Of a stretch of 64,000 bases of DNA, positions 28,094 through 31,096 are shown in pieces. Positions within the stretch are counted from its first letter, which is position 1; each line of letters opens with the position of its first letter. Source of the stretch: Nitrospinaceae bacterium (GTDB taxonomy: Bacteria; Nitrospinota; Nitrospinia; Nitrospinales; Nitrospinaceae); the NCBI GenBank assembly GCA_028278405.1, contig JANQEK010000021.1, forward strand, positions 1-64,000, in the 5' to 3' direction. A model generated the notes under the pieces. The model was given only the letters and a program-made list of their open reading frames with translations. It ran no database searches and was not told the DNA's origin. The translations under genes and the position numbers were made by a program.

Positions 28094-29332
28094 ATGGCTC
28101 TTTATGCGTTTGATGGAACCTGGAACAGCGATGATGAAAAGGACAGCAAAGACACCAACGTGATCAGATTCCGCGAATTGTATCAGGGTAAGACCGAATA
28201 TATCTCCGGGGTGGGAACCCGATTCGGCGTTGTAGGGAGAATCCTTGGAGGAATTTTTGGCAGTGGCGGAAAAACCCGTATCAAAGAAATGAGCGAGAAA
28301 TTGGCGGCCAATTGGGAAAACGGGGATGAGGTGGTCGATGTCATTGGTTTCAGCCGGGGTGCCGCGTTGGCGGTTCATTTTGCGAATACGATTGGAGAAG
28401 ACGGCGTCGAGCTTTCCAACGGCAAAACCATAAATCCCAAAGTTCGTTTTCTCGGTGTCTGGGATATTGTGGGTTCTTTTGGATTGAGTTTTGATACGCC
28501 CTTGATCAACTTCCAGGATATCAACCTCGGCTGGGATATTAACTACATTGGAAAAAATGTAGACAAATGCAGCCATGCCATGGCTCTGGACGAGCGCCGT
28601 GAAACGTTTAACGTGACCCGACTTGACCCCGAAAATAAATTCGACAATATTGAGGAGCAATGGTTCCGGGGCGTACACAGTGACATCGGGGGAGGCAACG
28701 AAAATCCGAACAGATCAAATATAGCCCTGCAATGGATGATCGGGGAAGCAGTCCAGTGCGGCGTCCCGATAGATTTGAGTAAGGCTAAGGAGGAAAAATA
28801 TAAAAAAATCGATCTGATGGCAAAAATCAGCGAAAACACCGATATTCAAATTGATCCCCGGAGAGAAGTAAAGCAAGGAGACAAGATTCATTTCACCGCA
28901 GAAGCAAAACACTTGGAAGCGGGTGAACAACATACATTCACCATCCTGGCCGAACTCAAGTTCAACTGGTCCGGCGTTCATCTGGAAAAAGGCGCCACCT
29001 ATAAAATCTCGACTCCTGACAAAGATGAATGGGCGGACGACAAAATGGAATGCGGTCCGGGCGGCTGGACTAGTGAACGTTTGCCCTGGCTTCATAAAAA
29101 GGTTGTGAAACAATTCGAAGGCAGGCGCCGGCTCCCCGAGGCCAACTGGTTCGAACTGGTTGGGGCTTATGGAGACGAAGATGATCACCTTTTCAGGTTG
29201 GGACAAGCCGAGGGCGGGCAGGAATATAAAGCCACCCGGAATGGCGAGCTCTACCTTTTTGCCAACGATTTGAATTCCAAGTATGATAATAACCGTGGTG
29301 ATTTGAAAGTAACCATTACACGGATGGCATAA
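28094..29332 (+). CDS. DUF2235 alpha/beta hydrolase with C-terminal lectin-like domain
   Basis: 412 residues. The N-terminal DUF2235 domain has the Ser nucleophile in GFSRGA (S87), a likely Asp at 124 (VWDIVGSFG) and His at 195 (RGVHSDIGGG). This is the triad pattern of Tle1-type phospholipase effectors. There is no signal peptide. From about residue 285 the chain is beta-rich, and its end (GELYLFANDLNSKYDNNRGD) resembles the calcium and galactose-binding loop of PA-IL/LecA lectins, with the ND and NN residues at 391-392 and 399-400. No VgrG, Hcp or immunity gene is near. It has a good GGAGGGG site and stands alone. Confidence 0.8.
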   Translation: MALYAFDGTWNSDDEKDSKDTNVIRFRELYQGKTEYISGVGTRFGVVGRILGGIFGSGGKTRIKEMSEKLAANWENGDEVVDVIGFSRGAALAVHFANTIGEDGVELSNGKTINPKVRFLGVWDIVGSFGLSFDTPLINFQDINLGWDINYIGKNVDKCSHAMALDERRETFNVTRLDPENKFDNIEEQWFRGVHSDIGGGNENPNRSNIALQWMIGEAVQCGVPIDLSKAKEEKYKKIDLMAKISENTDIQIDPRREVKQGDKIHFTAEAKHLEAGEQHTFTILAELKFNWSGVHLEKGATYKISTPDKDEWADDKMECGPGGWTSERLPWLHKKVVKQFEGRRRLPEANWFELVGAYGDEDDHLFRLGQAEGGQEYKATRNGELYLFANDLNSKYDNNRGDLKVTITRMA

Positions 29333-29390: not shown

Positions 29391-29789
29391 ATGTCGAAAG
29401 GAAGTAATTCTACTTTCCATGTTCCTTTTCTATCTTGTTTGCTTGCAGGAGCGCTCTTGATGGGTGTTGTCATTTCCCCCTCCGTCACCCTGGGAAGTGT
29501 GGAGGGTCAAAACCTGCGGTCGTCCACGTTGAGGCAATATGATTTTCTTATTGCCCGAGTTAACAATGGAGAACCTTTTGACCCTCCATCACAAACAGTC
29601 GTGAATAAAATCGCCGAGAACCTGGAAACGCTTTCTTTCTACCAAATTGGTTCCATAAAAAAGCGTGAATTTCAACAAGTGGCGGAGAGACTTTACGCTG
29701 CAGTAGAAGATTGGGAAAGCGGCCAAATGATCGAAGCGAGACACCATTTGCTGAAGTCCCGAGCGTTACTGGCCTCGTTTTCATTTTAG
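29391..29789 (+). CDS. small secreted protein of unknown function
   Basis: 132 residues with an N-terminal signal sequence (hydrophobic LSCLLAGALLMGVVISP) and likely cleavage shortly after. The mature part is helical (about 95 residues), with paired Arg and Leu and no Cys. The end resembles a small helical bundle. No family is recognised. It lies between the DUF2235 gene and the MarR gene on the same strand, with 58 and 90 bases of spacing. Confidence 0.6.
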   Translation: MSKGSNSTFHVPFLSCLLAGALLMGVVISPSVTLGSVEGQNLRSSTLRQYDFLIARVNNGEPFDPPSQTVVNKIAENLETLSFYQIGSIKKREFQQVAERLYAAVEDWESGQMIEARHHLLKSRALLASFSF

Positions 29790-29846: not shown

Positions 29847-29865
29847 TAGTTTCGAATCAAAACTG
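29847..29865. promoter_or_regulatory. MarR operator box A (in front of the regulator gene)
   Basis: The 19-base sequence TAGTTTCGAATCAAAACTG lies 14 bases before the MarR start codon. Its reverse complement differs from box C before the P460 gene by one base. Binding here would overlap the 5' untranslated region and block the marR transcript, so self-repression is likely. Confidence 0.75.
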
Positions 29866-29879
29866 ATAAGCTGCATTTT

Positions 29880-30449
29880 ATGAGCATGCTGGAGATTCAT
29901 CAATTCTTGGAGAGGCTGGGAAATTTGATCCGGTCCCAAGCGCGGCGGACGTCGGACGCATTTGATCTGCAGCCAGTGCAGCTGAACGCACTGTACTATC
30001 TCTCCATCTGCAACCGTTACTCGGATACCCTCCTGGCTGTGTCCGAATATTTGGGCCAGACCAAAGGCACCACCTCACAAACCATAAAGCTGCTGGAACA
30101 GCGCGAGTTGATTGCAAAAAAACCGGACCCCATCGACGGTCGGGTAGTCCATCTAAAACTGACCGCTGCTGGAAAAAAAGTGGTCCAACAGTCCTGGCCT
30201 TCTCCAGTCCTGAAAGCAGTGGAGGACACCTTTCCGATCGAACACCAGGACGCTCTTCGCGATCATCTGAAACATCTGCTCCACACTTGCCAAACGGTCA
30301 ACGAGCAAAAAACCTTCGCAGTCTGTCACAGCTGCCGCCACAATGAAAAACGTGCAAAAGGCTATTTCTGCCGGCTGACCCAGGAACCTCTGTCCGCTGA
30401 GGATGTGACCCTTATCTGCCGGGAACATGAATTCCCTAAAAGCGCCTGA
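29880..30449 (+). CDS. MarR family regulator with C-terminal Cys cluster
   Basis: 189 residues. Residues 1-125 have the MarR winged-helix fold with DNA-recognition segment KGTTSQTIKLLEQRELI and the wing KPDPIDGRVVHLKLT. The C-terminal 45 residues have C149, C152, C164 and C180 plus H150, H154 and H183, in a CHSCRHN, GYFCRLTQEPL and CREHEF arrangement. This could hold an iron-sulphur cluster or zinc and act as a redox, NO or metal switch. Box A lies just before the gene. The ATG has no strong ribosome-binding site and an ATG two codons later is possible. The next gene, a cytochrome P460, carries two more copies of the same box. Confidence 0.85.
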   Translation: MSMLEIHQFLERLGNLIRSQARRTSDAFDLQPVQLNALYYLSICNRYSDTLLAVSEYLGQTKGTTSQTIKLLEQRELIAKKPDPIDGRVVHLKLTAAGKKVVQQSWPSPVLKAVEDTFPIEHQDALRDHLKHLLHTCQTVNEQKTFAVCHSCRHNEKRAKGYFCRLTQEPLSAEDVTLICREHEFPKSA

Positions 30450-30480
30450 TCCGGTCCTTTCCAACCCCGAACCGTTTTAA

Positions 30481-30499
30481 TAGTTTTGTATCGAAACTA
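30481..30499. promoter_or_regulatory. MarR operator box B
   Basis: TAGTTTTGTATCGAAACTA, an imperfect palindrome with arms TAGTTT and AAACTA. It ends one base before the -35 element of the P460 promoter. Boxes B and C differ at two central positions, and their centres are 46 bases apart. Confidence 0.85.
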
Positions 30500-30500
30500 G

Positions 30501-30530
30501 TTGACCTGCCCCTGCATTTCCTGATATAGT
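30501..30530 (+). promoter_or_regulatory. sigma-70 type promoter of the P460 gene
   Basis: A -35 box TTGACC at 30501-30506 and a -10 box TATAGT at 30525-30530, with an 18-base spacer. The start of transcription would be near 30537. Operator C overlaps the -10 box and operator B abuts the -35 box, a layout suited to repression. An AGGAGG-like ribosome-binding site (CAGGAGGC) follows at about 30556, before the ATG at 30568. Confidence 0.75.
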
Positions 30531-30545
30531 TTTGATTCGAAACTA
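30527..30545. promoter_or_regulatory. MarR operator box C
   Basis: TAGTTTTGATTCGAAACTA overlaps the end of the -10 box and the likely start site of the P460 gene. Bound MarR protein here would stop RNA polymerase loading or escape. Confidence 0.85.
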
Positions 30546-30567
30546 ATTAAACTTCAGGAGGCATCAT

Positions 30568-31062
30568 ATGAAAGCACCGTTTAAAGTTGTAGCCCTATTA
30601 TCTATATTCGCTGGGATCGCAGGAGTTTCTCTGATGGCCCAAGCTCAGCCCAACCAGGTGGCGTATCCGGAAGGCTACCGCGATTGGACACACGTCAAAT
30701 CCATGGTGATCCAAAAAGGTCATCCACTGGAGAACCCGTTCCAAGGAATCCATCATGTATACGCAAATCCAAAAGCGGAAAAAGGATTGAAAACAGGTAC
30801 ATTTGCCAACGGATCGGTACTGGTGTTCGATCTGCTGAAAGCTCAAGACGCCGGCGCGGCTTTGGTCGAAGGTCCTCGCAAACTGGTTGGAGTCATGAAG
30901 AAGGATAAAAAACAGTTCGCCTCCACCGGCGGTTGGGGATTCGAGGGATTCGCCGGCGACAGTTCCACCAAGCGATTGGTTAAGGACGGCGGTCAAGGTT
31001 GCTATCAATGTCATACTTCGCAGGAAAAAAAGGACTTCGTCTTCTCAACCTACCGTAAGTAA
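30568..31062 (+). CDS. cytochrome P460 family protein
   Basis: 164 residues with a Sec signal peptide ending around MAQAQ. The mature domain has the P460 pattern YPEGYRDWTHVKSMVIQKGHPLE, then GTFANGSVLVFDLL, and the c-type haem motif CYQCH near the C-terminus. P460 cytochromes oxidise hydroxylamine or handle NO in the periplasm. Their haem is joined to a Lys as well as the two Cys. The gene has its own promoter, two MarR boxes and a strong terminator, so it is an independent single-gene unit controlled by the MarR protein before it. Confidence 0.9.
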   Translation: MKAPFKVVALLSIFAGIAGVSLMAQAQPNQVAYPEGYRDWTHVKSMVIQKGHPLENPFQGIHHVYANPKAEKGLKTGTFANGSVLVFDLLKAQDAGAALVEGPRKLVGVMKKDKKQFASTGGWGFEGFAGDSSTKRLVKDGGQGCYQCHTSQEKKDFVFSTYRK

Positions 31063-31065
31063 TCC

Positions 31066-31096
31066 TGTTGCGGGGGCTCTTCCAGCCTCCGCAACA
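31066..31096 (+). terminator. rho-independent terminator of the P460 gene
   Basis: A 13-bp stem (31066-31078 with 31084-31096, one G-U pair) and a 5-base loop, starting 4 bases after the stop codon, followed by a short T-rich tail. It isolates the P460 transcript from the amino-acid genes downstream. Confidence 0.8.

Follow-up and report, generated by a model that had tools for sequence, protein, structure and literature searches.

A MarR-family regulator with an invariant four-cysteine tail and a neighbouring cytochrome c'-beta gene as a predicted autoregulated stress switch in a Nitrospinaceae bacterium

The locus considered here lies in a window of 64,000 nucleotides, the whole stretch of DNA that was analysed, from a Nitrospinaceae bacterium that we take to be a relative of nitrite oxidisers. 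It comprises a gene for a MarR-family regulator, then a cytochrome c'-beta gene, and then a terminator-like hairpin; the two genes stand in tandem and have separate promoters (Table 1). Just 5' of the marR region, at 28094-29332, the window encodes a protein with a catalytic domain like that of the type VI secretion (T6SS) phospholipase Tle1 (PF09994, 1.6e-39), and between this gene and marR, at 29391-29789, lies a gene for a putatively secreted protein of 132 amino acids with no Pfam match.

Table 1. Features of the marR-cytochrome locus, in window coordinates
Feature	Position	Strand	Remarks
MarR-family regulator gene	29880..30449	+	189 aa; winged helix and C-terminal Cys4 tail; Pfam MarR_2, 3.7e-8
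Cys4 tail of MarR	30297..30446	+	residues 140-189; C149, C152, C164, C180; putative sensor element with metal or Fe-S
Operator box 1 (predicted), TAGTTTCGAATCAAAACTG	29847..29865	+	14 bp 5' of the marR ATG; position kept in genus relatives L034/L035
Operator box 2 (predicted), TAGTTTTGTATCGAAACTA	30481..30499	+	ends 1 bp before the -35 of the cytochrome promoter
Cytochrome gene promoter, TTGACC-18-TATAGT	30501..30530	+	-35 at 30501-30506, -10 at 30525-30530; top promoter-scan match
Operator box 3 (predicted), TAGTTTTGATTCGAAACTA	30527..30545	+	overlaps the -10 of the cytochrome promoter
Shine-Dalgarno of cytochrome gene, AGGAGG	30556..30561	+	from sequence
Cytochrome c'-beta gene	30568..31062	+	164 aa; Pfam Cytochrome_P460, 3.6e-34; PDB 6hih, 4.4e-56
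Intrinsic-terminator-like hairpin	31066..31096	+	closes the cytochrome transcript

The first-pass annotation of this DNA had described three boxes with the arms TAGTTT and AAACTA, one before marR and two around the cytochrome promoter, and both the boxes and their placement proved exact: against TAGTTTN7AAACTA, box 1 has one mismatch and boxes 2 and 3 have none. What that annotation missed is the inner palindromic bases. All three boxes are near-complete 19-bp palindromes with the consensus TAGTTTYGAWTCRAAACTA, and box 1, set against the reverse complement of box 3, agrees at 18 of 19 positions. It is this inner palindrome that carries the signal; the arms alone were rejected as evidence because they occur at chance frequency in both window and genome. 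At up to three mismatches, the arms-only pattern has 19 matches in the window against 19.3 expected from shuffled sequence, and at up to one mismatch, it has 11 sites in the whole genome, fewer than the 19 of a reversed control. The proposed genome scan for more copies was run with the full pattern, inner bases included, and it returned only three sites at up to two mismatches in the 3.16-Mb genome, all at the marR-cytochrome locus. The worry that the boxes might be no more frequent than random sequence would allow is borne out for the arms but not for the full palindrome. At exactly three mismatches, there are seven other sites in the genome, and the control pattern has eight sites in all. 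The only box-carrying genes at up to two mismatches are marR and the cytochrome gene, and the scan found no further regulon members in this genome at that threshold.

Does the box accompany the regulator elsewhere? Homologues of the regulator were collected from 21 of 61 related genomes (19 close and 2 remote) and from 29 named genome loci, one of which (L062) is a partial match only; they belong to Nitrospinota, Gammaproteobacteria, Alphaproteobacteria, Campylobacterales, Dadabacteria, and Chloroflexota (Caldilineaceae). The family box pattern, TAGTWTYGANTCRAWACTA, occurs at up to two mismatches within 160 bp upstream of marR at 43 of 46 close homologue loci, versus 0.04% of shuffles, a contrast that is somewhat optimistic because the loci counted had also served to refine the pattern; a pattern drawn from the window's own boxes alone also finds sites at most homologue loci. 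Across the 61 genomes, 27 of the 32 sites at up to one mismatch adjoin a marR, cytochrome c'-beta, or thioredoxin-like gene, and the reversed control pattern has two sites in all. The box is present in 16 of 19 genomes with the regulator versus 6 of 42 without it (Fisher p = 2e-7). Box pairs also mark putative targets in trans, namely a cytochrome c'-beta gene on a contig other than that of marR (L103) and, in a single-contig genome, thioredoxin-like and MOSC genes at a distance of 1.3 Mb from marR (L085/L090). Matches before ftsH (G027, G028, and G049) and those in G005 and G060 look unrelated. Homologues with another recognition helix, in which T-K-G-T-x-S-Q is lost (L031, L032, and Thermus), are all without the box. 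L031, a divergent Cys4-MarR that is about 28% identical, and Thermus carry a related palindrome, TTTAGGANTCC, over the -10 (L031 2115-2135; L115 4952-4972), and this is probably the operator of their MarRs. Box and recognition helix vary in step, as would be expected if MarR recognised the box directly.

The arrangement of boxes and promoter is conserved as well. In the homologues, the second box of a pair lies 44-56 bp from the first (box A), over or just after the -10, and a -35 matching TTGACA at five or more of six positions begins 1-2 nt after box A in 47 of 48 distinct box pairs, versus 6% for shuffled gaps; in most homologues, this -35 is TTGACA itself. The window conforms, with box 2, one base, TTGACC, 18 bases, and TATAGT running into box 3. 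A -35 sought upstream of each single box gave nothing, the actual pattern being a -35 just downstream of box A. Box pairs in other families lie mostly between divergent genes, whereas in the window's genus the genes are tandem and marR has a box of its own 14 bp before its ATG. Such an operator-promoter-operator geometry is that expected of a repressor. The comparative evidence (the 43 of 46 loci, the 47 of 48 pairs, and the trans targets) backs the earlier proposal that the regulator represses its own gene and the cytochrome gene; binding and repression themselves are what we infer from it, and we consider this operator-and-repression core highly likely.

What would such a repressor control? 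The target had been called a P460, and in the hydroxylamine-oxidising sense this name must be given up: the protein has c'-beta residues at all three positions that a 2025 review lists as diagnostic for c'-beta versus P460 (PMC11928373), with F58 (the cap), F87, and G108 corresponding to F32, F61, and G82 of McCP-beta. Its closest solved relatives are the c'-beta proteins of Methylococcus capsulatus (6hih, 4.4e-56) and Thermus thermophilus (7ead, 8e-38), which share the Phe cap, the Phe at the cross-link position, and the Gly at the carboxylate position, whereas true P460 structures match far worse (about 1e-7 to 3e-11). The sequence features of a c'-beta are all found, namely, membership of the P460 superfamily, a CXXCH haem c motif (here CYQCH), a hydrophobic pocket with a Phe cap, and no Lys, and a signal peptide is recognisable by eye. 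With cytochrome P460 of Nitrosomonas europaea, the window protein has in common Pfam PF16694 and one CXXCH haem, but it has F87 in place of the cross-linking Lys and G108 in place of the distal Glu/Asp that serves as the proton-relay carboxylate. Both of these residues are needed for hydroxylamine oxidation (PMC11928373), and a P460 hydroxylamine oxidase was rejected on this basis. By its residues, then, the window's "P460" is a cytochrome c'-beta, a predicted binder of NO or CO that is not expected to oxidise hydroxylamine. Hydroxylamine is an unlikely substrate, although it may yet be a signal. McCP-beta binds NO with a Kd of <= 1e-10 M (PMC11928373), and the switch very probably controls an NO-binding haem protein here. 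The genome has a second P460-superfamily gene (L070; G000 contig 37, 15013-15405) with, by eye, a Lys at the cross-link position (GAVLVKEL), and its product may be a true cytochrome P460. Two more paralogues of the superfamily lie on contigs 25 (with Met at the cross-link position) and 29, and no box was found near any of these three genes.

The regulator scores 33.9 bits against Pfam PF12802, for which the cut-off is 27, and belongs to the MarR family by this measure. The best sequence and fold matches of its winged-helix core are MarRs of the MepR/HosA/FabT type, and the core of the AF2 model is MepR-like in Foldseek. Although the cores are alike, none of these proteins covers the Cys4 tail: matches to solved MarR chains end near residue 140. 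The four C-terminal Cys residues pointed out in the first-pass annotation are indeed present and follow the motif F-x2-C-x2-C-x11-C-x15-C. They are invariant in 48 of 48 aligned homologues, as invariant as the helix-turn-helix core, and the same four recur in alphaproteobacterial, Enterobacter, P. aeruginosa, and Thermus proteins. The AF2 model folds the tail into a small beta unit with moderate confidence (pLDDT of about 70-85). Compared by sequence, profile, and fold with Pfam, PDB, and Foldseek, the tail has no significant match and resembles no solved metal site, its Pfam similarity being weakly zinc-ribbon-like (DZR_2, E of 0.004 at best, in 4 of 26 members). We think it likely that the Cys4 unit is a metal or cluster site, and most likely the four Cys would bind Zn or Fe-S. 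Set beside Fe-S NO-sensing repressors of the NsrR and ArnR type, the four invariant Cys are compatible with either.

We posit that these parts form a two-gene autoregulated stress switch in which a Cys4 MarR represses cytochrome c'-beta, a model that we judge fairly probable as a whole. In this model, a MarR dimer would bind the 19-bp palindromes; bound at box 1, it would shut off its own gene, and bound at boxes 2 and 3, it would clamp the cytochrome promoter just upstream of the -35 and over the -10, leading to repression. The gene repressed in this way would encode a cytochrome c'-beta that acts in the periplasm as a binder of NO or CO. A metal (Zn) or an Fe-S cluster would sit on the four tail Cys, and reactive nitrogen species (RNS), with NO as the first choice, or a related thiol-reactive stress would attack this site, whereupon the repressor would release DNA and the cytochrome would be made. 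The sequence comparison gives directly the boxes, their conservation, the promoter geometry, the identity of the target, the class of the cytochrome, and the invariance of the Cys; direct binding to DNA, a repressing and not an activating role, the cofactor, and the signal are what we infer. The earlier suggestion of redox, NO, or hydroxylamine sensing through the Cys cluster gains from that invariance, and the sensing itself stays conjectural. Our best guess is a stress sensor that would work through a metal or Fe-S and respond, most probably, to RNS; as to whether NO/RNS is the main signal, we find ourselves evenly divided.

The partners of the regulator bear on this choice. In T. thermophilus HB27, a cytochrome P460 family gene, whose product is 45% identical to the window's and by species and family is of the TtCP-beta type of PDB 7ead, lies just ahead of a gene for a Cys4-tailed MarR. 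There, the cytochrome gene leads and the operator is another one; the window has marR in the lead, a promoter for each gene, and the TAGTTT...AAACTA box. The pairing of c'-beta and Cys4-tailed MarR thus spans Nitrospinota, Pseudomonadota, Campylobacterota, and Deinococcota. Elsewhere, the linked genes encode a thioredoxin-like protein (FYHAGCPVC), DUF2024, a redoxin (PF08534), MOSC, and a secreted protein of no known family, joined in P. aeruginosa and Enterobacteriaceae by a Rho-binding antiterminator. At 26 of 48 loci, many of them gammaproteobacterial, the neighbour is a thioredoxin-like, DUF2024, or secreted-protein gene with no cytochrome in the locus DNA compared, which leaves room for a signal wider than NO alone. 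MOSC proteins that include MOSC_N are similar to YcbX/mARC, reducers of N-hydroxylated compounds. Together, the gas-binding cytochrome and the MOSC partners suggest RNS, with thiol or oxidant stress an almost equally good fit.

Could the tail instead answer to thiol chemistry? With the same repressor and operators, the Cys4 unit may be a Zn-thiolate switch for redox or electrophile stress (hypochlorite, disulfide stress, or reactive sulfur) rather than NO, with the cytochrome as one of several downstream defences. The thiol/redox proteins that accompany the regulator in other phyla (thioredoxin-like, redoxin, DUF2024, and MOSC) and the weak zinc-ribbon similarity of the tail speak for this reading; however, the linked target here and at the Thermus locus is a dedicated diatomic-gas binder, and the thioredoxin-like partner gene is absent from this genome and from the window's genus. 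We hold it to be possible, at well short of an even chance. It is unlikely, in our view, that the tail holds zinc for structure alone and that the regulator responds to a phenolic, haem, or comparable small molecule lodged in the pocket that MarR proteins usually have between their dimerisation and wing domains. Such a pocket is typical of MarRs, with MepR, HosA, and PefR among the fold matches, and many zinc ribbons are structural, but a mere tail is seldom as invariant as the helix-turn-helix core, and haem and thiol defence genes go along with the family. Nor does it seem at all probable that MarR activates the cytochrome gene from box 2 beside the -35: box A does abut the -35 in nearly all pairs, yet the -35 is near consensus, the second box (box B) covers the -10 or +1, as in repression, and a box also stands just before the marR start codon. 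It is barely conceivable that the three boxes are functionless palindromes that arose by chance, since the chance frequency that would favour this applies to the arms alone, and the full palindrome has no other site in the genome at up to two mismatches and is kept across phyla.

The components of the proposed switch, a MarR repressor and a cytochrome c'-beta, are each of a known kind. A parallel, by published description, is ArnR of Corynebacterium, a [4Fe-4S] NO-sensing repressor that is released from DNA by NO and controls the NO-defence gene hmp (PMC12343034). The outline in common is a MarR/ArsR-type winged helix with a C-terminal Cys sensor region, but ArnR has three Cys with other spacing, where four are found here, and it is reported almost exclusively from Actinobacteria (PMC12343034). 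CioR, a Chromobacterium MarR tied to NO resistance, was set aside as different (GbsR subgroup, with a single Cys; PMC11837568). No characterised member of the Cys4-tailed subfamily was found in the open-licence PMC literature, and neither the subfamily nor its operator or promoter clamp seems to have been described there. We propose, tentatively and at a little short of an even chance, that this is a widespread, uncharacterised MarR subfamily, ranging from Nitrospinota and Thermus to P. aeruginosa, in which a Cys4 tail with Fe-S or zinc senses NO/RNS and a conserved operator-promoter-operator clamp is used. If true, no regulator of cytochromes c'-beta would have been known before this one, the MarR family would gain a new class of NO sensor, and the invariant four-Cys tail would extend the known stress-sensing modes of MarR regulators. 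The physiological role and regulation of cytochromes c'-beta are unsettled, and a dedicated regulator that accompanies them from phylum to phylum and has a defined operator makes the inducing signal directly testable.

The MarR of the window shares 53% identity with gammaproteobacterial proteins (Thalassolituus, L036/L038) versus 43-52% with its counterparts in other Nitrospinota families, and marR is missing from most sampled congeners, including one genome that is 95% complete (G005). This identity pattern and patchy presence hint at horizontal transfer of marR.

That members of this regulator family also occur in P. aeruginosa and on conjugative plasmids of Enterobacter suggests a stress response that has gone unnoticed. 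A P. aeruginosa MarR encoded between lpxO2 and purM, presumably PA0942 by gene order, is 47% identical to the window's and shares its Cys4 tail, and the boxes there are related; its neighbours are the thioredoxin-like, DUF2024, and Rho-antiterminator set rather than a cytochrome, and in papers it was found only as a transcriptome-list entry. Cys4 MarR homologues on P. aeruginosa and Enterobacter plasmids usually lie beside a small thioredoxin-like gene. On a P. aeruginosa megaplasmid (L110 6054-7561), the Cys4 MarR gene and its boxes are divergent from thioredoxin-like and Rho-binding antiterminator genes, and the same MarR, boxes, and divergent partners occur on an Enterobacter IncHI2A plasmid (L109 8305-9564) and a Lelliottia plasmid (L113 3469-5073); two of these three plasmid loci also have a DUF2024 gene. 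The Cys4 MarR is carried by 56 Enterobacter plasmid records. A secreted family of about 250 amino acids (APFDIIHT...DFDDTPL...WHSHWVVL), with no Pfam or NCBIfam match, adjoins the same regulator (L037 2915-3655, L061 2816-3559, and L060 3075-3860) and occurs in Gamma- and Alphaproteobacteria and in Chloroflexota.
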